NCBI GenBank assembly: GCA_017625255.1
Contig: JAGALK010000031.1
Span: forward strand, 1-34,009
Direction: 5' to 3'
Origin: Lachnospiraceae bacterium
Lineage (GTDB): Bacteria; Bacillota; Clostridia; Lachnospirales; Lachnospiraceae
DNA length: 34,009 nucleotides
The translations under genes were made by a program, and so were the position numbers. Numbering within the stretch: the first letter of the stretch is position 1; every line of letters begins with the position of its first letter. The notes beneath the pieces are model-generated. The model saw nothing but the letters and a program-made list of their open reading frames with translations. It made no database searches and was not told the origin of the DNA. Shown here piece after piece: positions 1-34,009 of this stretch.

Positions 1-300
1 AAAAAGTTGAAGGCAATACCCGCAGAACAGCGATTGATGTTAGTCATTTCAGACGGAAAGCCGAATGGATATAACTACCACTTATCCGAGGGACAGAAAG
101 ATTGCCAAGATGCCGTATCAAAAGCAATAAAAGACGGTATTACAACAATCTGTGCTGGCATCGGAAGCGATACTGCATCAGTTAAAGCCGTATACAAGGA
201 AGGAATAAGTGAGAAAAATTCCGCACATTTCTTGGATATTACGGATTTAAAGAAGTTGCCGAAAGCCTTTATTAAGATTATTAAGAAGGCTTTGGAATAA
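1..300 (+). CDS. VWA domain protein, CobT-like, C-terminal part
   Basis: The reading frame is open from the first base, so the gene starts upstream of the window and only about the last 99 residues are visible. They match the second half of a von Willebrand factor A domain of the cobaltochelatase CobT type: a buried strand with the sequence LMLVISDGKP, an alternating helix and strand around GITTICAGIG, and a final DITDLKKLP segment leading into the last helix. CobT-like VWA proteins on plasmids and phages usually work with a MoxR/CobS-type AAA+ ATPase. Such a partner would lie upstream and cannot be checked here. The role in this element is unknown. The VWA fold assignment is fairly secure; any link to cobalt chelation would be unjustified. 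Confidence 0.75.
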   Translation, partial: KKLKAIPAEQRLMLVISDGKPNGYNYHLSEGQKDCQDAVSKAIKDGITTICAGIGSDTASVKAVYKEGISEKNSAHFLDITDLKKLPKAFIKIIKKALE

Positions 301-716: not shown

Positions 717-747
717 GAGGGTGGCGATTGCTACCCTCTCTTTTTTT
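717..747 (+). terminator. Intrinsic terminator
   Basis: GAGGGTGGC (717-725) pairs with GCTACCCTC (730-738) around GATT and is followed by TCTTTTTTT. This is a textbook intrinsic terminator. It separates the upstream unit from the promoter at 752 and is nearly the same as the hairpin at 4376, which also sits just before a leader copy. Confidence 0.85.
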
Positions 748-751
748 GTGC

Positions 752-860
752 TTGCAAAGTTTTCCATATTATTGTAATATATACTTGTAACATTCAATTT
801 AACAATATTTGACTAACAATAAGGAAGAACTCCGCAGGGGTACTTCCTTTTTTTGTTGTC
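752..860 (+). promoter_or_regulatory. Promoter and attenuator leader, copy 1
   Basis: The promoter is TTGCAA (752-757), a 17-base spacer, and TAATAT (775-780). The predicted start is G787, seven bases after the -10 box, giving an RNA that begins GTAACATTC. The first 34 bases are A/T-rich and contain GACTAACAA at 811-819. An intrinsic terminator follows at 821-854, and then TTGTTGTC, which can pair back to GACTAACAA with one bulged base. The coding sequence starts only at 886, so transcription must pass the terminator. The same layout occurs at 4408, 11545 and 26829. Confidence 0.8.
821..854 (+). terminator. Leader terminator, copy 1
   Basis: AAGGAAG (821-827) pairs with CTTCCTT (843-849). 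After an A/A mismatch, ACTCC (829-833) pairs with GGGGT (837-841) around the loop GCA. Seven T residues end the structure. It lies about 35 bases into the transcript, between the promoter and the gene at 886. Confidence 0.85.
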
Positions 861-885
861 AAAAAAAAAGAAAGGAGGTTCACTT

Positions 886-1842
886 ATGAACCGTAAAGAA
901 CTATTATCATCAAGTGCTGAAAGGGCACTCAAAGAAATCATTGGTAAGAAAGGTGGCGATACATCAAAAGATGTTTTCGACAACCTTGAATATCTTACCG
1001 ATAAGGCTACCTCATACGGGGAGGATTTCTATTATATTCCCGTATTGATTAAAAAACTGCTCTGTACCTACATTGATCCGGATTATCGCATTGAGTATGT
1101 GGTAACAAAAGGTGGCGATTGGTGCGAATGTGAGGCTAAATTATATTGGTCTGACAGTGAACAACCCGCTGGTATCGGGTTTGTGCGTAGATACGCTAAT
1201 CAGATTTCCCCTTTCGACAGTCTTTCAAAAGAAGAAAGACTGTCACAGCTGGAAGCAAACTGTCGTGGTGCTTCGGCTACAAGGGCTATTGCCGATGCTG
1301 GCGTAGCGTCCCATTTTTGGGGCGATATGTCCGGCTTTGAAATTAAGGGTGAAATGGAAGAAGCGGAAGCGTCTGCAAAGATGCGTGCAGAAGCCAAAAT
1401 CCCCGAAGTGAAGTCGGCGGTAGAGAAAAAAGCCGAAAAGAGGGAAAAAGCAAAATCCAAAGCGGAAGCCACCGCTTCTGAATTACCTTCTGCAAAAGAA
1501 GTTTTTGAAACTACCTCTAATGATTTCGCATCAGAAGAAGTGGTATTTGCAGAGGATTGCTCTACTCCCAGCTTTTTCGATTTCCTTGAAGGGAACGAAG
1601 AAACACCGGACGGCAACACCGAAGAAGTTGCGTCCGAAGAAATTGGTTTGGACGACGCTTTAAATGCGGTGTCCGATATGGGTACCTACAAGGGACAGAC
1701 ACTTGGCAATATCTATAAGATGATGCCGAGAAACCTTGTATACTTGGCTACTCACTCCTCTACCGTCGGTAAATACGCAAGAGTTATCATTGCTACCGAC
1801 GAGGCATTGAGCAAGATGCTTAAAGACGCAGAGGAAGTATAA
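886..1842 (+). CDS. Possible DNA annealing protein with ExoX-C-like end
   Basis: The ATG at 886 is chosen because AAAGGAGG ends seven bases upstream; a longer TTG frame would begin inside the leader terminator. The product is 318 aa. Residues about 1-150 have a feel of phage single-strand annealing proteins (Rad52/ERF type), notably the segment ANCRGASATRAIADAG. A charged Lys/Glu/Ala linker runs from about 155 to 205, followed by an acidic stretch. The last 50 residues, with TYKGQTLGNIYKMMPRNLVY, resemble the small C-terminal domain of exodeoxyribonuclease X and DUF3820-type proteins. The position ahead of primase and helicase genes fits recombination or replication. All function is inferred from weak resemblance. 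It is the first gene downstream of attenuator leader copy 1. Confidence 0.55.
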   Translation: MNRKELLSSSAERALKEIIGKKGGDTSKDVFDNLEYLTDKATSYGEDFYYIPVLIKKLLCTYIDPDYRIEYVVTKGGDWCECEAKLYWSDSEQPAGIGFVRRYANQISPFDSLSKEERLSQLEANCRGASATRAIADAGVASHFWGDMSGFEIKGEMEEAEASAKMRAEAKIPEVKSAVEKKAEKREKAKSKAEATASELPSAKEVFETTSNDFASEEVVFAEDCSTPSFFDFLEGNEETPDGNTEEVASEEIGLDDALNAVSDMGTYKGQTLGNIYKMMPRNLVYLATHSSTVGKYARVIIATDEALSKMLKDAEEV

Positions 1843-1901: not shown

Positions 1902-3095
1902 ATGGGATATAGTTGGCAACCCTACGAACCTTTAAGTTTGTTGGGTATTCAGATAAATCCACACAAGACGGAAGTTTACATTAAGTGTCCGTTTTGCGGT
2001 GGTAAAAGATTTGCCTTTAATACAGTTAAGGGTATCGGTCACTGCTGGTCCTGTCAGCAGACCGCAGATAGTGCAAAATACTATGCGACGGAAATGAATT
2101 TGTCGTTGTATGATGCACGAAAAGAAATTGAGGATAGATTAGGGATAAGCAATAACTACTCTAATTCTAATCCTGCCCCTCTCCCGCCCCGTATCGTATG
2201 TAATACGCAGAAGGAAGAGGCAAAAAAAGCACCCGATGAAGTGTTGGATAAGACCTACCGCGCGTTTTTGGCAGAATTAACGCTGTCTGAAAAAAACCGT
2301 GCGATGCTTCTTGCAAGAGGCTTATCAGACGAAGAAATCGTGGCTCTGGAATACAAAACATTCCCAAACCGAAGCAATGTAGACTTCTTCAAACTCTGTA
2401 AGCGTTTGCTTATGGACGGGTGTATTTTAGAAGGGGTGCCCGGTTTTTTTAAAGCAAAAACTGGCGACTGGACTTTTGTGCAGTTGACACAAGGGATTGT
2501 GATGCCCCAAAGAAATTATAAGGATCAGATTATCGGATTGCAGATACGCAAAGACGATGATTTGCGTTCTTATATCGAAGAAATTGGCGATTACGAAGCG
2601 AAATGTGCTTGGTTTTCGTCAAAAAATCGTACTGGTGGTTGTGGTGCTAATGCTCTTACACACTATGCCTGCGATTTTAAGTATGATGCGGGAACAAAGA
2701 AATGGTTGCCCGTATTTGAGGACGGGTTCGTACTTACAGAAGGGATTATGAAGGGAGATATTATTCATTTCTTCCAGCGTAATCTTCCCGTAATTGCGGT
2801 ACCCGGCGTTCACGCACTCAATAATTTGAAAGAGGAACTGGAACGCTTGAAAGCCCTTGGTGTAAAAACTATCCTGCACGCTTACGATATGGATTACAAG
2901 ACTAATCCGAATGTACAGAAACAGTTGATTAAGACCAAGGAAATTATTGAAGAAGTCGGCTTGCGTTACAAATTACTGGAATGGGAAACCAAAATCACAA
3001 TAGAAAATGGCAAGCAGGAAGACCTTTTAAAAGGATTGGACGACTACTTGGCTTACTGTTCCCTCGGTATCGTGCCGAAGGTAATCAAAAAATAG
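1902..3095 (+). CDS. DNA primase-like protein, zinc ribbon plus Toprim
   Basis: The product is 397 aa. An N-terminal zinc ribbon uses two CxxC pairs (Cys29/Cys32 and Cys48/Cys51), as in DnaG-type and plasmid primases. The C-terminal half carries Toprim signatures: a glutamate in LTEGIMKGD (E280), the PGVHAL turn at 301-306, and acidic residues in AYDMDYK (about 328-333). This layout, with a DUF3854-like Toprim part, is common in plasmid and phage primases that make RNA primers for element replication. No helicase domain is fused; the separate helicase at 4544 could serve. The ATG follows AAGGAGG with a spacing of nine bases. It lies 59 bases after the preceding gene with only a stem-loop between, so it is probably in the same operon. 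Confidence 0.8.
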   Translation: MGYSWQPYEPLSLLGIQINPHKTEVYIKCPFCGGKRFAFNTVKGIGHCWSCQQTADSAKYYATEMNLSLYDARKEIEDRLGISNNYSNSNPAPLPPRIVCNTQKEEAKKAPDEVLDKTYRAFLAELTLSEKNRAMLLARGLSDEEIVALEYKTFPNRSNVDFFKLCKRLLMDGCILEGVPGFFKAKTGDWTFVQLTQGIVMPQRNYKDQIIGLQIRKDDDLRSYIEEIGDYEAKCAWFSSKNRTGGCGANALTHYACDFKYDAGTKKWLPVFEDGFVLTEGIMKGDIIHFFQRNLPVIAVPGVHALNNLKEELERLKALGVKTILHAYDMDYKTNPNVQKQLIKTKEIIEEVGLRYKLLEWETKITIENGKQEDLLKGLDDYLAYCSLGIVPKVIKK

Positions 3096-3155: not shown

Positions 3156-3560
3156 ATGGCAGAAAAATTACACTTTTATATCTGTTCTCCCCTCTCTGCT
3201 CCTACGCAGAAGGGAATTGAAGCAAATATGAATAAGGCAAGGATATATGTAAAAACTGTTTGCTGTATTACGGGCAAACGAGCGATTGCACCGCACGCAA
3301 TACTTCCGGGGTACTTCGATGATAACATTCCCGAAGAAAGAGAACTTTGCTTACAGTTTGGGTTAGATGTTTTAGCCCTCTGTAAAGTTATGGTTGTCTG
3401 CGGTACAAGAGTTTCCCGTGGAATGAAAGGCGAAATCGAAAGAGCAAAATGCTTAAATATGCCGATTTACGCATTGTGTTTCAAGGGTGGAGAAGACAGC
3501 TATGAAAATTATGAACTTGTACCTTTCGAGGAAGTAAAGGAGGAATTTGATTATGTATAA
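3156..3560 (+). CDS. SLOG/DUF4406-like nucleotide-binding protein
   Basis: The product is 134 aa. It starts with FYICSPLS, has PHAILPGYFDDNIPEERELCLQ in the middle (quoted here only to fix the pattern IAPHxxxPxxxDDxxPEER), and contains VMVVCGTRVSRGMKGEIERA followed by LNMPIYAL. This is the pattern of small phage and plasmid proteins related to nucleoside 2-deoxyribosyltransferases and the SLOG superfamily (DUF4406/DUF7768 type). They are thought to bind nucleotides or nucleotide-derived ligands, but their role in mobile elements is not settled. It overlaps the next gene by eight bases, so translation is probably coupled. A conserved hairpin sits directly before its ribosome binding site. Confidence 0.65.
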   Translation: MAEKLHFYICSPLSAPTQKGIEANMNKARIYVKTVCCITGKRAIAPHAILPGYFDDNIPEERELCLQFGLDVLALCKVMVVCGTRVSRGMKGEIERAKCLNMPIYALCFKGGEDSYENYELVPFEEVKEEFDYV

Positions 3561-4366: not shown

Positions 4367-4375
4367 CATTAAAAA

Positions 4376-4403
4376 GAGAGTGGCTACTGCTACTCTCTTT
4401 TTT
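4376..4403 (+). terminator. Intrinsic terminator
   Basis: GAGAGTGGC (4376-4384) pairs with GCTACTCTC (4389-4397) around TACT and is followed by six T residues. It lies nine bases after the stop codon at 4366 and just before leader copy 2. Confidence 0.85.
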
Positions 4404-4407
4404 ATGC

Positions 4408-4516
4408 TTGCAAAGTTTCCCGTATTATTGTAATATATACTTGTAACATTCAATTTAACAAAATATCGACTGACAAAAGGAAGAACTCCGCAGGGGTACT
4501 TCCTTTTTTTGTTGTC
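4408..4516 (+). promoter_or_regulatory. Promoter and attenuator leader, copy 2
   Basis: TTGCAA (4408-4413), 17 bases, TAATAT (4431-4436), and predicted start G4443. The RNA again begins GTAACATTC and carries GACTGACAA before the terminator at 4477-4510. TTGTTGTC follows the T-run. The stretch is very similar to copy 1 at the DNA level, including the terminator just upstream, which suggests a duplication of the whole terminator-promoter-leader block. Confidence 0.8.
4477..4510 (+). terminator. Leader terminator, copy 2
   Basis: AAGGAAG pairs with CTTCCTT, and ACTCC pairs with GGGGT around GCA, as in copy 1. Seven T residues follow. The helicase gene starts 34 bases further on. Confidence 0.85.
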
Positions 4517-4543: not shown

Positions 4544-6016
4544 ATGGAACTACGAAAAAGGGAAGTGGTAAGTGCCATTAACCAAACGGGTAGCACTTGG
4601 GTTCCGGTGGGAGAAAACGACAAAATCGGTTCCGATTTAGTTGTTAGAAAACACAACGGAAAAAAATATGCCACTCACCCGTGGTACCAGCGTTCCGAAA
4701 AGAACTGTGCAAGAATGATTGTGCGGTATTTAAAGGAATATGCTGTTGATGTAAAAGCAGTGGAACGCATCATTGCTGAATTTGAAGCGTCAGAAGGCAT
4801 TAAGCTGGCAGACGAACAAAGAGAAGGCGTGTATATGATGTGCAGACACCGTTTTTGTATCTTAACGGGTGGTCCGGGTACTGGTAAAACTTCGGTATTA
4901 AAGTGCGGGGCAAAAGTATTAAAAACACTTAATCCCAACTACTTCCTTGCATTTTCCGCACCAACAGGAAAGGCAAGCCGAAGAATTACCGAAGGTACTG
5001 GCTATCCGGCTACTACTATTCAGAAAAAAATTCACGACACTGGAAGAAGCGACTATCTGTTGCCGATTGCAGATGATGTGATGTTTCTTGATGAAATCTC
5101 CATGCTTGACTTGGAAACATTCGAGAAATTTCTGATGTGTGTGTCGAACCATACAAGAGTAATTCTTGTAGGCGATGTGGACCAGCTACCGTCAGTAGGT
5201 GCAGGTGCCGTTCTTCGTGACCTAATAGACAGCAATGTTCTTCCGGTCACGCAGTTGGAAAAAACCTTCCGACAGGACAATTCAAGTGTTCTTTTTGAGA
5301 ACATACAAGTTGTCAAGAAGGGTGGCTATGTACCTTTATTTGAGGGTTCCGACTTTAAAAGAATTAAGTCGGAAAGAAATGTTTTTGAAACTTGCGTAAG
5401 CGAGTATTTAAAGGCATTAAAGGAATACGGTATGGAAAACACCGTTATACTGACACCCTACCGTAAGGCAGGAACGGTATGCAGTGAAAAACTAAACACC
5501 GTATTGCAAGAGAAGGTAAATCCGAATGGTTACGGTTTTACCAAAACCGTCAATCGTGACGGCAGAAAGTTACGAATAACTTTCAAGGAAGGCGATCCCG
5601 TTATCCATTTACGCAATAGGGACGGAATTGCCAACGGAGATGTAGGAGTGATTACGGAAATTACGGAAAAAGCCGTGATTGTAAACTACTCTGATACTCT
5701 CTTTAAGTACCGCACCGGGGGAAGTGACCTTGACGATTTGGATTTAGCGTATGCTTTATCCGTAAATAAATCGCAAGGTAGCGAATACAAATGCGTTATC
5801 ACTCCTCTTCTGCGAGAAAACAAGAATTTGGACCGCAATATGGTCTATACAGCTATTACGAGAGCAAAGAAAATGTGCGTAGTAATTGGCGAAGACCGCA
5901 TTATCCAAGATGCCTGCAAAATTCAATCTTCTTGGGAAAGAGATACTTTTCTCTGTGAAGAATTGCAGGTAAAGAGCAAGGTGGTAGACCTTATGGCTAC
6001 TATTCTTGCTATGTAA
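4544..6016 (+). CDS. RecD2-like DNA helicase
   Basis: The product is 490 aa and is a superfamily 1B 5'-to-3' helicase of the RecD/TraA type. Visible motifs in order are Walker A GGPGTGKT (109-116), Walker B with FLDEIS (181-186), motif III GDVDQLPSVGAGA (210-222), motif IV KTFRQ (240-244), TPYRKAG (304-310), motif V NKSQGSEY (408-415) and motif VI VYTAITRAKK (434-443). It is shorter than chromosomal RecD2 (about 700-800 aa) because the long N-terminal region is reduced to about 95 residues. The family unwinds DNA and acts in repair or conjugation; here it may support replication or transfer with the primase at 1902. AAAGGAGG lies ten bases before the ATG. Transcription comes from leader copy 2. 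Confidence 0.9.
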   Translation: MELRKREVVSAINQTGSTWVPVGENDKIGSDLVVRKHNGKKYATHPWYQRSEKNCARMIVRYLKEYAVDVKAVERIIAEFEASEGIKLADEQREGVYMMCRHRFCILTGGPGTGKTSVLKCGAKVLKTLNPNYFLAFSAPTGKASRRITEGTGYPATTIQKKIHDTGRSDYLLPIADDVMFLDEISMLDLETFEKFLMCVSNHTRVILVGDVDQLPSVGAGAVLRDLIDSNVLPVTQLEKTFRQDNSSVLFENIQVVKKGGYVPLFEGSDFKRIKSERNVFETCVSEYLKALKEYGMENTVILTPYRKAGTVCSEKLNTVLQEKVNPNGYGFTKTVNRDGRKLRITFKEGDPVIHLRNRDGIANGDVGVITEITEKAVIVNYSDTLFKYRTGGSDLDDLDLAYALSVNKSQGSEYKCVITPLLRENKNLDRNMVYTAITRAKKMCVVIGEDRIIQDACKIQSSWERDTFLCEELQVKSKVVDLMATILAM

Positions 6017-11544: not shown

Positions 11545-11652
11545 TTGCACTTTGATTTATTCTGTAATATAATAACCTTGTAACAAATTTTAACAAATAA
11601 GACTAACAAGAGGAAGATACTCCTACGGGGTAACTTCCTTTTTTTGTTGTCG
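11545..11652 (+). promoter_or_regulatory. Promoter and attenuator leader, copy 3
   Basis: TTGCAC (11545-11550), 17 bases, TATAAT (11568-11573), and predicted start G11580. The RNA begins GTAACAAATTT, shows GACTAACAA at 11601-11609, then the terminator at 11611-11645 and the conserved TTGTTGTC. The unpaired segment is three bases shorter than in copies 1 and 2. There is no terminator hairpin just upstream, so this copy does not descend from the same block duplication. Confidence 0.8.
11611..11645 (+). terminator. Leader terminator, copy 3
   Basis: AGGAAG pairs with CTTCCT. After an A/A mismatch, TACTCC pairs with GGGGTA around the loop TAC. Seven T residues follow. The extra T-A pair in the inner stem, relative to copies 1 and 2, keeps the structure. 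Confidence 0.85.
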
Positions 11653-11689: not shown

Positions 11690-12871
11690 ATGGCAAAGAA
11701 ACTGTACGAAAACAATGATATTAAAATTGCAGATGAAATGGAGGCTATTAAGTTCTTCAATGACATCTGCAAGGAAGATGTGTGGCAGAGATGTCGCACG
11801 AAAGAATTGGTAGCAGTACCGATTGAAAACCACCCTCTGTTCTTTGAAGATAAGAGAACAGAGTATGGTATTCCGCAGGAAGTCAGCATTGACAGCATTG
11901 CAGAATGTGCGGAAAGCTATCAGATTGGCGTAAAAGTGCCGTTTGATACGGGTTATAAGTGTTACCCTATCGGCGACACCGCTTTTTCTTTATTGTTGGA
12001 AAGAGCAGGTTTCCAGAAGGCAACTGCACTCTCCTGTTTAAAGGAAAAAGGAACCCAGTCTGTAATGCCCTGTACTCACACGGCGCAGATTATCAATATG
12101 GGCTTTGAAGTATTCAAGAATAAAGTTCTTGTACTGATCCGAGATGAAAAAGTGCGTGCGGTACTCTCCGGTGACGAAAGCGACTACTCAATCCTTCCCT
12201 TTGATAAGTTACTGTCTATCTTTATCGACAGCCTTATGGGACAGTTTGCAGATGTCAACTTCGTATCGGCTACTGCTTGTCACGAATACTTCTCCGTGCT
12301 GTATTCGATGAAAGATAAGACCGTAGAGGAAAGCATCGAAAAGGTATTCGCTTCCGCAGGGCGTACATTTAACAACATTAAAATTGAAGCAAGACTGGCT
12401 TCATCAGATGTTGGTATGTCCGGGGCGAAGATTTATCCGTTTTTGAAGTTAGACAACAATCTCCGTATTATCGGAAATCCGTTGTCCGTAACTCATAAAA
12501 ACGGAAAAACTTTGAAGGACTTCAAAGACAACTGTGGCAAGGTATTCTCAATGTTTAAGGATATTGAAAGACAGTTGGAAGTAATGAAGGACAAGAAGCT
12601 GAAAAGCCCGCAGGGTGCTTTTCTTCGTGTGGCAAAAGAAATCGGTTTACCGAAGAAGCTGGCACACGAACAGGCATCAGACTTCGAGGCGTTATTCGCA
12701 AAACCCAGTCAGTTAGACTTGTACTGGGCGTTGTACGAAGCTCTTGATGCTTACAAGGTAGCCCGCAAAATGGATTTATCGTTTACGCAGATGCTTACCT
12801 TTGAGGAAGGTATTTGTCGTACTCTCTTTGGCGACATTGAGAAATACGATATGCCGTTTACTTGGGAATAA
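11690..12871 (+). CDS. Hypothetical protein, 393 aa, possibly DUF932-like
   Basis: AAAGGAGG lies seven to eight bases before the ATG. The product is a soluble alpha/beta protein without signal or membrane segments. Parts of it recall phage/plasmid proteins of the DUF932 type: an early segment ending in a Tyr/Pro-rich turn, the central VLVLIRDEKVRAVLSGDE region, and a helical C-terminal half. DUF932 proteins are frequent on plasmids and phages but have no settled function. The match is by impression and could be wrong. It stands alone between leader copy 3 and a terminator, so it is the only gene that this leader directly controls before the terminator at 12886. Confidence 0.5.
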   Translation: MAKKLYENNDIKIADEMEAIKFFNDICKEDVWQRCRTKELVAVPIENHPLFFEDKRTEYGIPQEVSIDSIAECAESYQIGVKVPFDTGYKCYPIGDTAFSLLLERAGFQKATALSCLKEKGTQSVMPCTHTAQIINMGFEVFKNKVLVLIRDEKVRAVLSGDESDYSILPFDKLLSIFIDSLMGQFADVNFVSATACHEYFSVLYSMKDKTVEESIEKVFASAGRTFNNIKIEARLASSDVGMSGAKIYPFLKLDNNLRIIGNPLSVTHKNGKTLKDFKDNCGKVFSMFKDIERQLEVMKDKKLKSPQGAFLRVAKEIGLPKKLAHEQASDFEALFAKPSQLDLYWALYEALDAYKVARKMDLSFTQMLTFEEGICRTLFGDIEKYDMPFTWE

Positions 12872-25826: not shown

Positions 25827-26753
25827 TTATCTTAACTTCATTGGCAATAATGGATTAGGATTTAAGGTTGCAGAAGATACAATATCTTCATACTCTTCTC
25901 CAACTTCCAACCGCCTAGCCATAACAACCATTCTGTTTGTACCGCTACCGTGTAATTCTACCGAACAGCTGGATAAAGTGATATAAGCATCATCAATGGT
26001 ATTTTCAATCGGTACATTTATCCAACTTCTGCGCGATACTTCGCCCATATACCACTCGTAGTCCTGCATAGAAACAAATTCTGTATTATCAAAGTAAATG
26101 AATGTATCTGTATCAGAAGTATCAACTAAATAGTAAGCAAAAATCAACCACCGGCTTGTACCGTCTTCGGTAATAATCTCTACAATCGGGTGTTCCTTGT
26201 AGTATTCAATGTCCCGGTAATTATTCAAATCAGCAAAGACATCTAATCCGTTCAGACGGATATTATGACCGTATATAATGTTATTACCGCTGACACGGGA
26301 TAAATCGCTACCGATTGATAAAAATGGTACACCATGACTGTTATGCTCTTTGTTAAGGTCACGATTAAGGTAATACCCTTCATCAGCAGGAGTATACATA
26401 ATCGGGTGATTAAGAACACTGTCGTTAATACGGATCATTGCAACCACATCTTCGTTGTAATCCATATAAGTCTTTAAAAGGCTTGTATCACTATCGTTTT
26501 CCGTATAATATTGCGTCGGCTCATACCCGTCTTCATACATAACACCGTCCTGCAAGCTCGTATTCGCCCCATTTAGCCCGTTTTCTTCGTTTGATGCAGA
26601 TTTTACCGACCTAACAGCTGAAATCCCGCAAATCGTCAAAATCAGAACGCCTACGCCTATCACAATACCGATGCGTCGCAACGATTTACTTTCCGGTTCG
26701 TCACTTTCATCGTATTCAAAATTAAAATCATCTTCGTCCATATAATTTTTCAT
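25827..26753 (-). CDS. Class B sortase
   Basis: The product is 308 aa: an acidic cytoplasmic start, one membrane helix (about 27-47), a spacer, then the sortase domain. Catalytic residues are His163 in IIYGHNI, Cys263 in ITLSSCS and Arg274 in SGTNRMVV. The spacing and the Ser in place of Thr before Cys fit class B enzymes of clostridia. Sortases join surface proteins to peptidoglycan or to each other. No protein in this window has an obvious LPXTG-type signal; the large surface protein at 29235 has only a membrane anchor. A substrate may lie elsewhere on the element or use an unusual motif. It is the first gene of a five-gene operon with its own promoter. Confidence 0.9.
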   Translation of the reverse strand: MKNYMDEDDFNFEYDESDEPESKSLRRIGIVIGVGVLILTICGISAVRSVKSASNEENGLNGANTSLQDGVMYEDGYEPTQYYTENDSDTSLLKTYMDYNEDVVAMIRINDSVLNHPIMYTPADEGYYLNRDLNKEHNSHGVPFLSIGSDLSRVSGNNIIYGHNIRLNGLDVFADLNNYRDIEYYKEHPIVEIITEDGTSRWLIFAYYLVDTSDTDTFIYFDNTEFVSMQDYEWYMGEVSRRSWINVPIENTIDDAYITLSSCSVELHGSGTNRMVVMARRLEVGEEYEDIVSSATLNPNPLLPMKLR

Positions 26754-26781
26754 ACATTTTCTCCCTTCATTTGGTTCGTAT

Positions 26782-26816
26782 AAGTATATTATACTTTATT
26801 CGTCTGCAAAAGGCAA
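26782..26816 (-). promoter_or_regulatory. Sortase operon promoter with palindrome
   Basis: On the minus strand: TTGCCT (26816-26811), 17 bases, TATAAT (26793-26788). The -10 box sits inside the perfect palindrome AAGTATA T TATACTT (26782-26796), which matches the one at 17334-17348 except for the central base. Confidence 0.7.
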
Positions 26817-26828
26817 AAAAACAGACAG

Positions 26829-26930
26829 TTGCAGACTGGAAATTATTGTGCTAGAATATAATTGTAAAATTTATCAACAATATGGACTAACAATATAGAG
26901 ATTTTCCGTAGGGAATTTCTCTTTTTTTGT
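26829..26930 (+). promoter_or_regulatory. Promoter and attenuator leader, copy 4
   Basis: TTGCAG (26829-26834), 17 bases, TAGAAT (26852-26857), start G26864. The RNA begins GTAAAATTT, carries GACTAACAA at 26885-26893, and meets a terminator at 26897-26928. The T-run is followed by GTC only, so pairing back to the GACTAACAA element is shorter than in copies 1-3. The stem sequence is quite different from the other copies but the architecture is the same. The next gene starts 160 bases downstream. Confidence 0.75.
26897..26928 (+). terminator. Leader terminator, copy 4
   Basis: AGAGA (26897-26901) pairs with TCTCT (26918-26922). After a small internal loop TTTCC (26903-26907) pairs with GGGAA (26911-26915) around GTA. 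Seven T residues follow. Confidence 0.8.
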
Positions 26931-26937
26931 CAAAAAC

Positions 26938-27076
26938 TTGTGAATAATAAATAAAGTGATATAATAGTATTAAAGAAAAATATAAATATGGGTATAGCCC
27001 CGTAAAAAAACAATCGGGGATATATCACAATCCCTGTTTATTTATAGATAAAATAATGAAATCTGCACAAGCAGGG
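26938..27076 (+). promoter_or_regulatory. Second promoter and structured leader of the nuclease gene
   Basis: TTGTGA (26938-26943), 16 bases, TATAAT (26960-26965). The 5' leader holds a stem with CCCCG (26998-27002) and CGGGG (27015-27019), and CTGC ACAA GCAG just before the ribosome site. The gene can therefore be expressed without passing the terminator at 26897, or from both promoters. No known riboswitch was recognised. Confidence 0.5.
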
Positions 27077-27089
27077 AAAGAGGTAAAAA

Positions 27090-28049
27090 ATGAATGAACC
27101 AACAAATTTAGCAACAACAATCGACAGTGCAGGCTCCACATCGGGTATGTATGATAAACTCATGAAGGAACTGTTAGCAGACAAGCAGGTATTGGCTCGT
27201 ATCTTGAAAAATACAATGAATGAGTTTAAAGATATGGAAATCCCGAACATTATTCAGTGTTTAGGAAGTGTTCACATTCAAGAACAAAGAGTTGAACCGG
27301 GTTTGTCAAATTTAGGAAAGGTAGAAAGAACAGCAACCGAAAACAGCGCACAAGGAGAAGGAACAATATATTACGATATTCGTTTCTCGGCGTATGTAAA
27401 AAACAGAACAGTAAAAATTTTAATCAATGTCGAAGCTCAAAAAAGCATCAAAGCTAGTCAATTAAAATATCATATCGTAAATAGAATTGTCTTTTACTTG
27501 GCTAGAATGATCTCGGCTGAAAAAGAGGTTGAATTTTTCAATAGTGATTACGATAATATTAAAAAGGTCGCAAGTATATGGATTTGTATGAGTGACAACG
27601 AAAAAGACGGTTCTATTGAAAAATTATCATTAAGTTCCGATGAAGTGTATGGAGAAAGCACTGGGCTTTTATCTACGGACTTAATGGAAGGCTATCTTAT
27701 CTGTTTAAGAAAATCAGATAATGTTAAAGCGTCAAAGAATGAACTTATATCTATGTTGGAAGATTTGATTAACGGTAAAGATGCAGAAGAAAAAAAGCGA
27801 AATCTGGAAACCAAACATAATATGATAATGAGTGAAGAGTTTGAAGGGAGGTTATCTCAAATGTGTAATTTAAGTGGCTTAGTATTAGAAGAAGGAATGG
27901 AGAAAGAAAGGGAGAATGGACTTAAAGCGTTAATTGCCACAATAAAAGAATTATCCCCCGGTATATGCGTTGAAGATGTATATAAATTAGTAATTAAAAA
28001 TGAAACATATAAAGATGTAACACCGGAACGAATAAAAAAATATTTGTAA
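27090..28049 (+). CDS. Rpn-type PD-(D/E)XK nuclease/transposase-like protein
   Basis: The product is 319 aa, a normal length for the PD-(D/E)XK 'transposase' (PDDEXK_2, Rpn-related) family that is present in many copies in Lachnospiraceae. The nuclease core is visible: Asp in IYYDIRFSAY (about residue 95), the catalytic strand ILINVEAQKS (about 110-119) with the E-x-Q triad, and then YHIVNRIVFYLARMIS. The C-terminal third is helical and ends EGMEKERENGLKALI. Family members are linked to recombination rather than to true DDE transposition. No terminal inverted repeats were found around it. It stands alone between two terminators and lies downstream of leader copy 4 and a second promoter. Confidence 0.8.
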   Translation: MNEPTNLATTIDSAGSTSGMYDKLMKELLADKQVLARILKNTMNEFKDMEIPNIIQCLGSVHIQEQRVEPGLSNLGKVERTATENSAQGEGTIYYDIRFSAYVKNRTVKILINVEAQKSIKASQLKYHIVNRIVFYLARMISAEKEVEFFNSDYDNIKKVASIWICMSDNEKDGSIEKLSLSSDEVYGESTGLLSTDLMEGYLICLRKSDNVKASKNELISMLEDLINGKDAEEKKRNLETKHNMIMSEEFEGRLSQMCNLSGLVLEEGMEKERENGLKALIATIKELSPGICVEDVYKLVIKNETYKDVTPERIKKYL

Positions 28050-28060
28050 AAAATGACATA

Positions 28061-28088
28061 AAAGGGTATGCTATGTGCGTACCCTTTT
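28061..28088 (+). terminator. Terminator of the nuclease gene
   Basis: AAAGGGTATGC pairs with GCGTACCCTTT (one T-G pair) around a short loop, followed by a T-run. Confidence 0.85.
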
Positions 28089-28094
28089 TTATTG

Positions 28095-28134
28095 CAAAAA
28101 AACAGAAGCGGGCTTTTTACACCCACTTCCGTTT
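28095..28134 (-). terminator. Terminator of the lipoprotein/surface protein operon
   Basis: On the minus strand AAACGGAAGTGGG pairs with CCCGCTTCTGTTT with two G-T pairs around GTGTAAAAAG, and a T-run follows. It stops the convergent minus-strand unit. Confidence 0.8.
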
Positions 28135-28153
28135 CTTTACGATTTTTCGTTGT

Positions 28154-29215
28154 CTATTCGGAAACTTCCTCGTAGGAAGCGATAGCAACCATTTTATAAA
28201 GGGTTGAAATATCTTCTTCGCTTACATCTTTAAGGGCATCAGCATACGCATAGTAGGTAACACTTGCACGATAGCCTAACGCCTCGCCTTTACCTTCGTA
28301 TACAGCCCAGTAAGTTGAAAGATACGCTTCGCAATCAAAAATTGCGTTACGGCTGATAGTTCCGTTTGCATCAGTATAAGCGTCGCCGTTCCAGCGTCCA
28401 CCAACCACACGATACAAATTAGCGTCTAAACCTAAGAAGGAAAGAATATCATTCTGATATCCGTCCCAAGTAGGAGTTGCAGAACTTTGGGGAACATATA
28501 CAGTCTTGCCGTAGCCTTCAAACGCCCATTTATCAACCGAAGTTGAATTGCAGGTAAATACACCGTCTACGGGATAACCGCTTCTCCAAGAGGGTTCTGA
28601 CTGACCGCTACTTACTAATTTACCGTTGATTTCCGCATCAGCTTCATCAACTTCATTGTAGTAAGAAATTGTTTTAACCTGTGGAATGTAAGGTGCCGTT
28701 GTTCTTGCGCCATATTCCACTCTTTCGGTTACGGTTGTGGTAATGGGTACAAGATCAGACCAGTTAAAGATGTCACCATTTAAGGTATATTTCTTTCCGG
28801 TTGCATCTGAAACCCACTCAATAGAAGTTTCAGCGTCTTCCTTTTCTTCCACTTCCACATCAACAGTATGTGCTACTACGCTCATAATCTCCGAAGTCTG
28901 ATATTCAGCATTTCCGGTGTACTTATACTTTACGCCGTCCACTTCAATCATTTCGGGAATTTCAAATCTCAATCCGTCTTCCGTTTCGGAATAGAACTGA
29001 TATTCCATTGTAATAATGTTCGTTTCTTCATCAGAAGCATCTTCGCCAGCTTCGCTTGACTGTTCGCTACCGCCTTCGATATTGTCTTCGGCTGTTACTC
29101 CCGCAGACGCATCTTCCGTTGCAGGAGTTTTATTACAACCGGTAATCAAAGTGGCAAGCATCATACTTGATAACAAAATCACGCCTAATTTTTTAGCAAT
29201 GTATTTCTTTTTCAT
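28154..29215 (-). CDS. Secreted lipoprotein, 353 aa
   Basis: The ATG at 29215 gives a standard lipoprotein signal (MKKKYIAKKLGVILLSS) with the lipobox LITGC; Cys26-27 would carry the lipid. An upstream in-frame ATG at 29248 overlaps the previous gene and adds only a charged extension; AGGA stands seven bases before 29215, which favours the shorter form. A Ser/Glu/Asp-rich spacer follows the lipobox. The rest is strand-rich, with many aromatic residues in the C-terminal half (WRSGYPVDG, WNGDAYTD). No family is recognised. It is co-transcribed with the large surface protein just upstream and may act as its partner on the outside of the cell. Confidence 0.7.
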   Translation of the reverse strand: MKKKYIAKKLGVILLSSMMLATLITGCNKTPATEDASAGVTAEDNIEGGSEQSSEAGEDASDEETNIITMEYQFYSETEDGLRFEIPEMIEVDGVKYKYTGNAEYQTSEIMSVVAHTVDVEVEEKEDAETSIEWVSDATGKKYTLNGDIFNWSDLVPITTTVTERVEYGARTTAPYIPQVKTISYYNEVDEADAEINGKLVSSGQSEPSWRSGYPVDGVFTCNSTSVDKWAFEGYGKTVYVPQSSATPTWDGYQNDILSFLGLDANLYRVVGGRWNGDAYTDANGTISRNAIFDCEAYLSTYWAVYEGKGEALGYRASVTYYAYADALKDVSEEDISTLYKMVAIASYEEVSE

Positions 29216-29234
29216 TATATATCCTGCCCCTTTC

Positions 29235-32015
29235 TTACTCTTCTTCATTGTTTAAGTCTTCGTTCAGCTTTTTAACAGCGTTTTTTAACTTTTCAGTATC
29301 GTCACTGTTTTTTGCTTCTTCGACTGCTTCAACGGCTTTACCCATAGTATCTTCAATGTTTACAACTACCGATGTGGCTTTTTTTAACTGTTTCTTCTTA
29401 CGAAGATAAAGTAAAATAACACCGCCGACACAAACAACACTGACAACACCGATAATAATATAAGTCGCATAACCTTTATTTTCTTCTTCGGTATCTTCTA
29501 CTGATAATACTACGGAATAACCTTCTTCTCCGCTGTCTTCTGTCTGCCAGTTATTACGGTTCCATGTGTTTTCATCGAAAGAGATGCGTAACAGTCCGTA
29601 AACGGGTGTAGATTTGGGAGTATCGGGTTTATCGGGGGTAGAAGGTGTCGGTCCGTCGTTATAAAATACCTTTGAGTAAGTTACGCTTTCATCGGTTGAA
29701 TTATTCGGCAATGTTGCTGTGAAGGTAAATTCTTCATCAGACATTGTATATCCCGCAGGTGCAGAGATTTCTACAATCTTATAATCAACACCAAAAGGCA
29801 AGTCCAAACCAAAGTTTACTTTACCGTTAGATGCAGAAGTACCAGTTGCGATAACATCGCCTGCATTAACAATAACGGTGCCTTCATAATTCACAATATC
29901 GCTTTCAGCACTTAATTCAAACTTTGCACCAGCTAGGTTGTAAGAAGTACCCGTAATCTTCTTGGTTACATCTACAACAACATCTTGTTTATCATTAAGG
30001 ATTGACTGTGTAATTTCGATAATAGGTGTGCTATCATCAACAAATTCTACACTGAACTCAATCGGAGTATCGTCCAAAATATAACCAACGGGGGCTACGG
30101 TTTCAATCATCTTGTAATTACCAAGAGGTAAATCTTCCAAAACGCCTTTACCGTCTGCACCAGTTACGATTGTTCCAACCAAATCGCCGTCAGAATAATA
30201 CTTTGTTCTTTCGCCGTTAGCATCTAACTGCATATCGTGAGTAAGAATATCGCCTACGGCATATACTTCAAATTCTGCACCAACCAAACCTTTTTCTTCC
30301 CATACAAACTTTCCGTTTTCAAAAGCTGTAAGAGTAGGTCCAGTCTTTGTAAGTTCTACTCTACCCATTGCAGGAGTGTTTTGATATTCTACGGGGATAT
30401 AAAGTTCTCCCGATGTTTCATCTTTCTCAAAAGTTGCACTACTTCCTACTACTACCGTGGGATAATTGGTATCAAGGATATAGTTGGGAGGTGCTGATAC
30501 TTCTTCGATACGATATTCGCCTAATTCAAGGGGCTGGGGAAGAATTAAATAACCTTCGCTGTCAGTCTTGAATGTAGTATGTTCTGTTACAGTAGGATAT
30601 GTGGTGTACTGTACCACATATTGATTATTGGTAATATCAAAAATCTTAAACTCGATATTTTCCAAAAGGATAGACTTACCAGTTGTGCTATCCATTTTTG
30701 TAATCTTTAATTTCGCTTCAATCTCTTCGTTGATAATAATTCTCCAAGTTTGAGGCTCTGTGGGCTTATGTTCGGTAACGATTACTTCAAAAGGTTCACA
30801 CTCAAAATATCCGTCGGGTACATCAACTTCTCGAATAACATAAGTACCATAAGGCAACGGTGCTGATTTCGCATAACCAGTTGCGTCGGTATACATTACT
30901 GTACTTCCGTCCTGTGCGATAACTACGGGATTAGCATTTTCAAAATCGTATGTACCGTCAGCTTTTACTCCAAGTCTGGACTTTAAATATGCGGAGAAAC
31001 CGGAAACCAAAGGAACGGCATCGGTATTTTCTCCGTCAAAACCTGCCTTTATAATCTGAAAAGGCTGTTTTTTGACCTGCTCTCTTGAAGTAATTACGGG
31101 ATTATCAACAACTACTTCAATTTCTCCAGTCACGGGATCCGGCGTGCCATTTGCAGTTACATTCACATCATATTCTGTGGGATCAATCATATAACCAACA
31201 GAAGGAGATATTTCTTTTACATAATAGGAACCCGGAACAAGACCGTCAAAATATGCGACACCACTTGCATCTGTCGTAGCCTGCATCAATAAAGCACCAG
31301 CAGGGGCTAATACAGTCTGTCCTGTATCATCAGTCGGATCTAAAATGTCTGCTCTTGCGTAAAGTCCATACACAGCACCCTGCAATTTTGCATCGCCCTG
31401 TGCAAGTGCTGTTTCACTGTCGATTTTAACAAGTTTAATATCATATTCTCCTCCGGGAGTTGTTTCTCCAAAACCGTACATAGCAATAATCTGCGTTCCC
31501 GGACCACCATAGCAACAAATAGCGGAACCAGTGTAATCTGACATAGCACAAGCCTGTATAAAATCATAAAGACCGCTACTTTGGAACTGTGCATCGGTTA
31601 CTCCATAATGACTTCCGGTGTAAGCATACCCTAACGCAATATGAGTACATAAATATCGGTATTCATCATTATCGCCAAAGTATTGTTTAGTAATATCATT
31701 GATACCACCATAACCATTACAGAAAATCTTAATCAATAAAGGATTTTCCGCAGATGTAATGGTAAATGTTTCATAATCTCCATTAGGAGGGGCAGGCTTT
31801 AAAGGCTCAATACAATACGCAATTTCACCGTCAATGGTATATCTTTGCGTTCTTGCGTTACTACCGGGGAAATATGTACTGTACTGAATTTCAACATCAC
31901 TTCTTCCTATGGTAGCTGTGTCGGCATAAGCAGGTAGGATACTACTAGCCACAATTCCTAACATCATCACAAAGGATAAGCAGGACAACCAAAACTTTTT
32001 CGTTTTTCGTTTCAT
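29235..32015 (-). CDS. Large surface protein with thioester-like and five SpaA/Cna-B domains
   Basis: The product is 926 aa. A signal peptide covers 1-31. Residues 40-185 resemble a thioester adhesin domain: Cys68 in IAYCIEP, and THIALGYAY at the place where the usual TQxAIW glutamine is found, so the glutamine appears to be His. Five isopeptide (SpaA/Cna-B-type) domains follow at about 192-287, 317-416, 434-524, 550-660 and 679-770, each with a Lys near its start (such as KLVKID, KITKMD) and a Glu near its end (YYVKEIS, YRIEEVS). A Pro/Thr-rich spacer (785-805) leads to one membrane helix (850-871) and an unusual cytoplasmic tail of 55 residues. No LPXTG signal is present. It is probably a membrane-held stalk or adhesin of the element. 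Confidence 0.85.
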   Translation of the reverse strand: MKRKTKKFWLSCLSFVMMLGIVASSILPAYADTATIGRSDVEIQYSTYFPGSNARTQRYTIDGEIAYCIEPLKPAPPNGDYETFTITSAENPLLIKIFCNGYGGINDITKQYFGDNDEYRYLCTHIALGYAYTGSHYGVTDAQFQSSGLYDFIQACAMSDYTGSAICCYGGPGTQIIAMYGFGETTPGGEYDIKLVKIDSETALAQGDAKLQGAVYGLYARADILDPTDDTGQTVLAPAGALLMQATTDASGVAYFDGLVPGSYYVKEISPSVGYMIDPTEYDVNVTANGTPDPVTGEIEVVVDNPVITSREQVKKQPFQIIKAGFDGENTDAVPLVSGFSAYLKSRLGVKADGTYDFENANPVVIAQDGSTVMYTDATGYAKSAPLPYGTYVIREVDVPDGYFECEPFEVIVTEHKPTEPQTWRIIINEEIEAKLKITKMDSTTGKSILLENIEFKIFDITNNQYVVQYTTYPTVTEHTTFKTDSEGYLILPQPLELGEYRIEEVSAPPNYILDTNYPTVVVGSSATFEKDETSGELYIPVEYQNTPAMGRVELTKTGPTLTAFENGKFVWEEKGLVGAEFEVYAVGDILTHDMQLDANGERTKYYSDGDLVGTIVTGADGKGVLEDLPLGNYKMIETVAPVGYILDDTPIEFSVEFVDDSTPIIEITQSILNDKQDVVVDVTKKITGTSYNLAGAKFELSAESDIVNYEGTVIVNAGDVIATGTSASNGKVNFGLDLPFGVDYKIVEISAPAGYTMSDEEFTFTATLPNNSTDESVTYSKVFYNDGPTPSTPDKPDTPKSTPVYGLLRISFDENTWNRNNWQTEDSGEEGYSVVLSVEDTEEENKGYATYIIIGVVSVVCVGGVILLYLRKKKQLKKATSVVVNIEDTMGKAVEAVEEAKNSDDTEKLKNAVKKLNEDLNNEEE

Positions 32016-33343: not shown

Positions 33344-34009
33344 TTAGCTGAATTGCGACCAGTCGATTTTACCAGTGTTAGCAGGCATCTCTTTATAAAT
33401 CATTAAAACATTATAATAGGTATTGATATTACCCGATGTCACAACGCAGGTTGCCGACACCATTGAATGAGAAGTTGCGTTCACACTGTAATACAACATA
33501 TTTGCATTATGGGAAGGCGAATTATAGTAGTTCGTGTAATATGTGTTAGCATCACCATACCCTAATACATAAGTCAAGTTCTCTGCACTACAAGGCATAC
33601 CTGCGTGGCTTAACTGCCCGCTTTGTGCGATTGCTTTAATTCGGTCTTTGGCTTCCTGCTCTTTCGCAGAGTTCCAAGTCAATGCAGGAACACCATTAGC
33701 TGTTCTGTGACCGTTTACCAAATCCAACATACCGGGTTCCAAGTACACCGTGTAGGTAGTTTCTGTTGTTGCAGTGGAACCGCCCGTGCCTGCATCGGGT
33801 GTTGCAGGCGTTGTAGCCTCGGGAGTGGAAGGAGTTATGGGTGCAGGCGTAGGCTGAACCACTACCTTTTCATTTCCCAAGTAATTGTTTGATACATAAG
33901 CAACTTCACCGTTGTAAGAAATCTCGTACCAGCCCGTACTTGCCTTGCCAGTTACCGCTACTTCTTGATTGGTGGTTAAGCTACCCACTCTGTCGTATTC
34001 GGTGCCGGG
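33344..34009 (-). CDS. Secreted SH3b and CAP (SCP/PR1) domain protein, C-terminal part
   Basis: The frame is open to the window edge, so the N-terminus with any signal peptide is missing; about 221 residues are visible. First comes part of a bacterial SH3 domain (GTEYDRVGSLTTNQEVAV, then WYEISYNGEVAYVSNNYL), which usually binds peptidoglycan. A Pro/Thr-rich linker follows, then a YkwD-type CAP domain with LDLVNGHRTANGVPALTW, the His in QLSHAGMP, and AENLTYVLG. CAP proteins of this type are common in secreted proteins of clostridia; their activity is not settled. It may help anchor surface structures or shape the wall. The conserved residues appear intact. Confidence 0.85.
   Translation of the reverse strand, partial: PGTEYDRVGSLTTNQEVAVTGKASTGWYEISYNGEVAYVSNNYLGNEKVVVQPTPAPITPSTPEATTPATPDAGTGGSTATTETTYTVYLEPGMLDLVNGHRTANGVPALTWNSAKEQEAKDRIKAIAQSGQLSHAGMPCSAENLTYVLGYGDANTYYTNYYNSPSHNANMLYYSVNATSHSMVSATCVVTSGNINTYYNVLMIYKEMPANTGKIDWSQFS

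Follow-up and report, generated by a model that had tools for sequence, protein, structure and literature searches.

Fifteen copies of a short promoter-leader-terminator module form a candidate attenuator regulon on a Lachnospiraceae plasmid

The 34,009-nucleotide stretch of Lachnospiraceae bacterium DNA analysed here (the window; GenBank assembly GCA_017625255.1, contig JAGALK010000031.1, positions 1 to 34,009, forward strand), contig C12 of a 3.1-Mb assembly that is 98% complete, carries four copies of a module in which a predicted promoter is followed by a short leader with a conserved box and then by a predicted intrinsic terminator. The window belongs to a plasmid on which a covariance model of the module (class 1; R1), built from 11 of the 15 copies, finds 15 copies, all on one strand. 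This module family is real, multi-copy and of the attenuator type, its sequence and architecture being new as far as searched and its kind known in outline. Judged from sequence, the evidence leans modestly towards the fifteen modules forming one attenuator regulon, in which a trans-acting factor at the box would permit read-through. An earlier reading of the window from its letters and open reading frames (ORFs), here called the sequence-only reading, had proposed a shared antitermination regulon of four operons. All four copies are present and the total on the whole element is 15; the proposal of a regulon is strengthened by the fifteen copies, by the position of hairpin and T-run after the predicted promoter and ahead of the start codon, and by homologous genes that follow another leader-terminator family in regions resembling integrative and conjugative elements (ICEs), while the trigger for read-through that it named (a trans factor, small RNA or nutrient signal) is something we infer. 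The parts of the four window copies are as follows.

752 to 780, plus strand: copy 1, predicted promoter; -35 TTGCAA at 752-757, 17-bp spacer, -10 TAATAT at 775-780, predicted +1 G at 787.
811 to 819, plus strand: copy 1, conserved leader box GACTAACAA.
820 to 860, plus strand: copy 1, terminator hairpin (dG -14.2), seven T at 848-854, conserved GTTGTC at 855-860, which can pair with the box.
4408 to 4436, plus strand: copy 2, predicted promoter TTGCAA-17-TAATAT, +1 G at 4443.
4468 to 4516, plus strand: copy 2, leader with box GACTGACAA at 4468-4476, hairpin at 4477-4503 (dG -13.8), seven T at 4504-4510, then GTTGTC.
11545 to 11573, plus strand: copy 3, predicted promoter TTGCAC-17-TATAAT, +1 G at 11580.
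11601 to 11651, plus strand: copy 3, leader with box GACTAACAA at 11601-11609, hairpin at 11610-11638 (dG -15.5), seven T at 11639-11645, then GTTGTC.
26829 to 26857, plus strand: copy 4, predicted promoter TTGCAG-17-TAGAAT, +1 G at 26864.
26885 to 26931, plus strand: copy 4, leader with box GACTAACAA at 26885-26893, a different stem at 26894-26921 (dG -11.8), seven T at 26922-26928, then GTC.
26938 to 26965, plus strand: promoter-like site 3' of the copy 4 terminator, TTGTGA-16-TATAAT with TG before the -10.

The sequence-only reading had described these modules accurately: the -35 box is TTGCAN at 752, 4408, 11545 and 26829, the spacer is exactly 17 bp in all four, a G stands at the seventh base past the -10 and is followed by TAA, the leader box and its variant in copy 2 are as given, and exactly seven T follow each hairpin. 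The stem changes it quoted (ACTCC/GGGGT, TACTCC/GGGGTA, TTTCC/GGGAA) are likewise real, two pairs being altered on both sides, and its remark that no named RNA family matches holds for the four copies in Rfam, a scan of the window giving no match at gathering and three sub-threshold matches (E<=1), none of them at a module. With one mismatch allowed the box is found 16 times in the window against 16.4 expected, which is not significant, and its four exact matches are precisely the four modules; what stands out is that promoter, leader, box, hairpin and T-run occur together, not the box alone.

The window closes into a circle with contig C136. The 141 bases that open C12 (window 1-141) recur at the end of reverse-complemented C136, and the final 71 bases of C12 (window 33939-34009) recur at the beginning of reverse-complemented C136; these exact overlaps at both ends give a plasmid of 110,568 bp. 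The assembly holds GACTRACAA-GGAAG at nine sites, three of them on C12 and six on C136, and a reversed control pattern at one. Through the first junction runs an open frame resembling a 705-aa VWA-domain protein of ICE-like regions. A mechanical scan of the closed plasmid requiring promoter, box, hairpin and T-run returned 13 sites on the plus strand and none on the minus strand, and the same scan of 20 Markov-1 simulated plasmids returned one match in total, an excess that places the modules beyond chance. Their lying on a single strand is in itself weak evidence, since ORFs of at least 100 aa on the plasmid (greedy set) are biased to the same strand, 89 against 28. Two copies outside the training set, at plasmid positions 52910 and 107935, score 80.0 and 67.7 bits with the covariance model; the weak copies at 51872 and 62749 score 39.8 and 32.8 bits, both having been seen first by a motif scan.

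Conservation is concentrated in particular blocks. Mean pairwise identity is 0.88 in the -35 box, 0.73 in the -10 box, 0.73 in the start region, 0.87 in the leader box and 0.75 in the seven bases past the T-run, against 0.46 in the spacer, 0.41 upstream and 0.36 downstream. The best promoter (TTG.../.A...T) has a 17-bp spacer in all 15 copies, 16-18 bp being permitted, and the predicted first transcript base is G in 13. The leader through the end of the box measures 30-36 nt in 14 copies and 44 nt in one, and the box reads GRYTRACAR in 14 copies and TGCTAACAA in the remaining one; that of copy 107935 is GATTAACAG and adjoins the hairpin. Box and hairpin are 0-3 nt apart in 14 of the 15 copies, a distance kept despite different stems in window copy 4 and in copies 51872 and 62749, and this tracking of the hairpin across changed stems points to a role of the box at the terminator. 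Hairpin dG ranges from -11.8 to -19.5, with stems of 9-13 pairs in 14 copies and more in the fifteenth; 12 copies have a T-run of seven, two have one of six and one has five. The hexamer behind it, able to pair with the box, is GTTGTC in ten copies and ATTGTC, GTCGTC or only GTC in four others.

Such a pattern bears on the alternative that the modules are constitutive attenuators with a fixed level of read-through and no switch, spread by duplication as low-output promoters. An extra terminator-like site lies upstream of nine of the 15 modules, its T-run 10-22 nt before the -35 box, and its tail is alike in eight of those nine (CTCT, then the T-run), as would befit duplication of a whole intergenic unit; this upstream terminator was probably copied along with the module and probably insulates it. 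Searches among NusG and LoaP relatives, pLS20 genes and the smaller plasmid proteins, described below, found no factor, which is also what constitutive attenuators would lead one to expect. A fixed level, however, gives no reason for a single-stranded box to stay conserved, and at a set place next to the hairpin, when spacer and flanks diverge, and in the ICE-like regions an analogous design is maintained although the sequence is unrelated; constitutive attenuation is held to be unlikely, if worth keeping in mind. Terminator-like sites are found in the window at 716-750 and 4370-4405, upstream of copies 1 and 2.

The leader offers little scope for a switch of its own. No antiterminator was found in any of the 15 leaders, the best duplex between leader and 5' arm of the hairpin reaching -0.9 to -5.1 kcal/mol against the -11.8 to -19.5 kcal/mol of the hairpin, and switching within the leader is therefore unlikely. 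Eight of the 15 leaders are without ATG, GTG or TTG and seven have one; at 30-44 nt, with few start codons and little room for a ribosome site, they disfavour leader-peptide attenuation. The missing antiterminator and the scarcity of start codons together argue against riboswitch, T-box and leader-peptide versions, leaving as explanations a trans factor or a partial read-through that is constitutive. An interpretation as integron attC sites was set aside because of misfitting core sites. The base stem, made of box and post-T hexamer, pairs in 96.5% of the cells of the model alignment and, as it includes the hexamer, would form only after read-through. In several copies the hexamer favours an upstream ACAACAAAA or GACGACAAAA stretch over the box, and an extended stem, with either the box or the upstream A-rich stretch as partner, is predicted in most of 13 folded copies. 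A stem of this kind would also suit a hairpin that served as a 5' stabiliser or in translation control, not as a terminator, hexamer and box extending it in the full-length mRNA; yet five to seven T right after a GC-rich stem answer the need of a terminator and not of a stabiliser, and this explanation is very improbable.

For the attenuator regulon, the position of the start codon is telling: it lies 24-38 nt past the module in ten copies and within 158 nt in 14, and in the ten closest cases there is little room for another promoter, so that expression should need read-through. Most transcripts would stop near base 65 at the predicted intrinsic terminator; a predicted trans factor, encoded perhaps by the plasmid and perhaps by the host, would bind the conserved AACAA-type box beside the hairpin and let RNA polymerase continue, and the downstream genes would likely be switched on together once polymerase had passed the stop. 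The reading presumes terminators that are active in the cell, a level of read-through that is regulated rather than constant, and a factor acting on RNA; both the factor and the timing of read-through are what we infer. The genes behind the modules are given below in plasmid order, starting at plasmid coordinate 785, with window positions for the first four.

Module gene 1, 886 to 1842, plus strand: 318 aa, without match in Pfam, NCBIfam or PHROGs; then ORFs at 1902-3095 (DUF3854, weak DnaG zinc ribbon) and 3156-3560 (DUF7768).
Module gene 2, 4544 to 6016, plus strand: RecD2-like helicase, 490 aa, scoring under the NCBIfam RecD2 cut-off.
Module gene 3, 11690 to 12871, plus strand: 393 aa, without family match.
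Module gene 4, 27090 to 28049, plus strand: 319 aa, without match in Pfam, NCBIfam or PHROGs.
Module gene 5: 190-aa protein.
Module gene 6: 105-aa protein.
Module gene 7: 322 aa, weak DNA-methylase similarity.
Module gene 8: 192-aa protein.
Module gene 9: protein of about 71 aa.
Module gene 10: 156 aa, weak similarity to Api92-like proteins.
Module gene 11: YqaJ-type nuclease.
Module gene 12: 63-aa protein.
Module gene 13: 132 aa; then an AAA_5 ATPase.
Module gene 14: SSB; then the VWA-type ORF.

Because an SSB, a YqaJ-type nuclease and a RecD2-like helicase stand behind modules, with the AAA_5 ATPase one gene further, the regulon may serve DNA processing during transfer and establishment. Elsewhere the plasmid encodes a Rep3 initiator, VirD4- and VirB4-type proteins of type IV secretion, ParB, a topoisomerase, an integrase and an anaerobic ribonucleotide reductase, together with two ORFs that we take to be ParA and ParM and that have similar ORFs in ICE-like regions; none of the secretion, ParA, ParB or ParM genes has a module directly upstream. 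The secretion genes suggest that the plasmid is conjugative, and no relaxase of family PF03432 was found on it. On the minus strand of the window, 25827-32015 presumably encodes a sortase-like protein and a large repeat adhesin, a pair that is typical cargo of Gram-positive conjugative elements.

Several results weigh against a single regulated regulon. The copies are partly recent duplicates, and their likeness is partly one of descent. Covariation was measured on an alignment fitted to the model's own structure: pairs with two-sided changes, which count in favour, number five against 1.4 in shuffles, whereas pair types number 14 against 12.0, a weak excess reached by 53 of 500 shuffles. The class 1 model found no copy in 144, 391 and 290 other genomes (overlapping samples), with filters, stricter for sets of more than 40 genomes, under which no more than 12 or 13 of the plasmid's own 15 copies appear; the evidence of conservation comes from one plasmid. 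In the genome itself no protein of the NusG family or LoaP (PF02357, NF033641) was matched; the housekeeping NusG was missed too, which points to an incomplete assembly or to a blind spot of the search, and at 98% completeness a local gap or an overlooked match is the likely cause. The first five genes of the pLS20 operon, of which we take the first to be ConAn1, gave a best blastp E of 0.097 against 149 plasmid ORFs. Lastly, two copies misfit a simple read-through rule, namely the degenerate copy 62749, whose next ATG ORF is 286 nt off, and window copy 4, where the second promoter-like site between terminator and gene means that the gene need not rely on read-through.

These same two copies, the one without a gene close behind and the other with a further promoter-like site downstream, would suit modules that mainly make trans-acting short RNAs of about 65 nt, the genes being expressed by leak. 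Ten copies, however, lie only 24-38 nt from a start codon, and no 12- or 13-base complement to three typed leader consensus strings was found elsewhere on the plasmid, which leaves short RNAs a quite improbable purpose. As to a factor for the attenuator regulon, 88 smaller plasmid proteins compared with Pfam and PHROGs matched 21 Pfam families and 49 PHROGs, and neither those families nor the 25 PHROGs listed include an obvious antiterminator. One of those proteins matches Pfam Phage_ProQ_C_like (E 1.3e-8) and is a possible RNA-binding candidate.

A covariance search outside the window, proposed with the sequence-only reading, added 11 copies on the plasmid and none beyond it in the genomes sampled. 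In blastn, window 745-880 had no match in the plasmids of PLSDB and one match of 31 bases (E 0.4) in a Vibrio phage; two terminator-type patterns were absent from viral contigs; and the linear motif AACAAAATANGACTRACAA occurred in at least 120 stretches, none of the 80 tested matching the module model. A pattern scan of genome contigs gave eight single matches, mostly in unrelated organisms and with R1 scores of at most 20 bits (E about 1), which are read as chance.

The closest published system is that of the establishment regulons of pLS20-family plasmids, from which the module differs in sequence and architecture. In the passages of PMC8708921 that describe them, two repeated regulatory sequences before operons, EGeRS1 and EGeRS2, define these regulons: EGeRS1 is 420-751 bp long, GC-rich and highly structured with inverted repeats, stops read-through from upstream and had no promoter found in the tested copy, while in EGeRS2 a promoter with dual TTATCCC motifs is under the control of a repressor. 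The module shares with EGeRS1, as described there, the repetition of one sequence before several operons of a conjugative plasmid with variable downstream genes, and its 15 copies carry predicted terminators, which may likewise block read-through. In contrast to EGeRS1, it is AT-rich (GC 0.27-0.37) and about 110 bp long, with a predicted promoter in 15/15, a minimal leader and a terminator, and by size, GC and promoter it is no EGeRS1. Identity with EGeRS2 is not supported, the dual TTATCCC motifs being absent beside the module promoters: around the start of each of the 15 matches, the 120 bases upstream and the 110 downstream are free of exact TTATCCC and its complement, and the seven sites with 2-3 mismatches in the window (3.5 expected) include none at a module.

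Establishment logic suggests an alternative in which the default state is on, the incoming plasmid being read freely until an accumulating plasmid-encoded factor binds the box and strengthens termination, with an establishment burst as the result. Zygotic logic of this sort is used by the p576-type EGeRS2, where it acts at the promoter (PMC8708921), and SSB, nuclease and helicase would fit the establishment and leading-region genes described for conjugative plasmids in parts of PMC8708921 and PMC11541004. The terminators, however, look strong alone (9-13 pairs, more in one; five to seven T), which favours default-off, and no candidate factor is known, so that a default-on arrangement appears distinctly unlikely.

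Termination-based control has other precedents. The conAn system conveys processive antitermination to Gram-positive conjugation operons by means of a protein and an RNA, past more than 20 terminators (PMC8955417); like the module it involves terminators within the transcription units of a conjugative element, bypassed there by a dedicated factor, whereas conAn heads one long operon and the module is repeated. Identity with conAn is not indicated, the first genes of the pLS20 operon being without significant match on the plasmid. Genes of Tn916, also a Gram-positive conjugative element, are under termination/antitermination control by canT (PMC11658703), and in LoaP systems a specialised NusG paralogue lets terminators be read through (PMC12691694), a likeness set against the lack of a LoaP match in the own genome, in the search that also missed the housekeeping NusG. 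Frpo/ssi promoters arise from folded transferred single-stranded DNA, whereas the promoter predicted in the module is of the ordinary, linear kind.

Homologues of the 393-aa protein show that comparable genes are preceded by other leaders. It has no relative in viral contigs or PLSDB and matches two unannotated phage-labelled records at 25-27% identity, and homologues with 24-31% identity occur in 21 of 396 other family genomes sampled. Many of these stand behind a promoter, leader and terminator of other sequence (class 2 or similar), some being without such a leader nearby. A model of the 3' part of the class 2 leader matches 18 of 397 genomes, the own genome not among them, the weaker matches scoring 34-36 bits, and several copies lie in single chromosomal regions (four each in G049 and G042, three in G173).

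Class 2 leader loci: L062-L078, L200, L205, L207, L208, L210, L230-L259.
Class 2 examples: G049:C1:1453449-1453516, 1477227, 1487475, 1501226.

Class 2 leaders resemble the plasmid module in having a promoter, a leader, a conserved box beside the terminator, several copies per region and homologous downstream genes; they differ in their unrelated sequence, longer structured leader, box TGTTTANGNTTG (conserved in 11 aligned leaders) and other stem base. Their promoter spacer CTATAT.TTGTG looks conserved by eye, and the closing stem comes in several pair types (UUUAUGC/GCAUAAG, UGUGUC/GACACA, UGUGCA/UGCACA); in 13 of the 22 rows it ranks first among upstream complements, a count made without shuffle control. 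Rfam on 13 class 2 loci gave no leader match and one group II intron elsewhere, and on pLS20, searched in three stretches, neither the class 1 nor the class 2 model found anything convincing (best E 0.81 and 0.51). Literature searches found no paper on either leader, which does not prove absence from print. The regions in G049 and G042 hold homologues of the plasmid's 393-aa, YqaJ, RecD, DUF3854, DUF7768, AAA_5 and VWA-type proteins, that in G173 of the AAA_5 and VWA-type proteins; their integrase and partition homologues suggest that such regions are ICEs. One gene directly behind a class 2 leader has an SSB domain (25.7 bits against the Pfam cut-off of 26), to which the plasmid SSB has no blastp match, and in or after another lies a DNA ligase. 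Two leader-terminators of unrelated sequence thus precede homologous sets of genes. A third leader type, TATCAGTNTCAAG...GAGTTTNTCAA, with the same AGTGTCA/TGGCACT terminator base, is seen at L058, L201, L204, L213 and L216 and at L202, L211, L212 and L214; G173 and G330 have two copies each, separated by about 13-16 kb.

To our knowledge, few studies have addressed the way in which conjugative elements from gut anaerobes activate their DNA-processing and DNA-protecting genes. It is conceivable, though we think it doubtful, that these leaders represent a new class of trans-acting antitermination for an establishment regulon in the conjugative elements of the family, with a factor unlike NusG, ConAn and known RNA-binding antiterminators, and with two unrelated leaders (the AACAA box of the plasmid and the TGTTTANG box of the ICE-like regions) independently recruited before homologous genes. 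A very short attenuator repeated fifteen-fold provides a handle for finding the whole regulon and for fishing for the factor, which, if it exists and is encoded by the element, sits among the finite ORF list of a closed plasmid. Judging from the unrelated leaders of the ICE-like regions, control through termination may be a general strategy for these genes.
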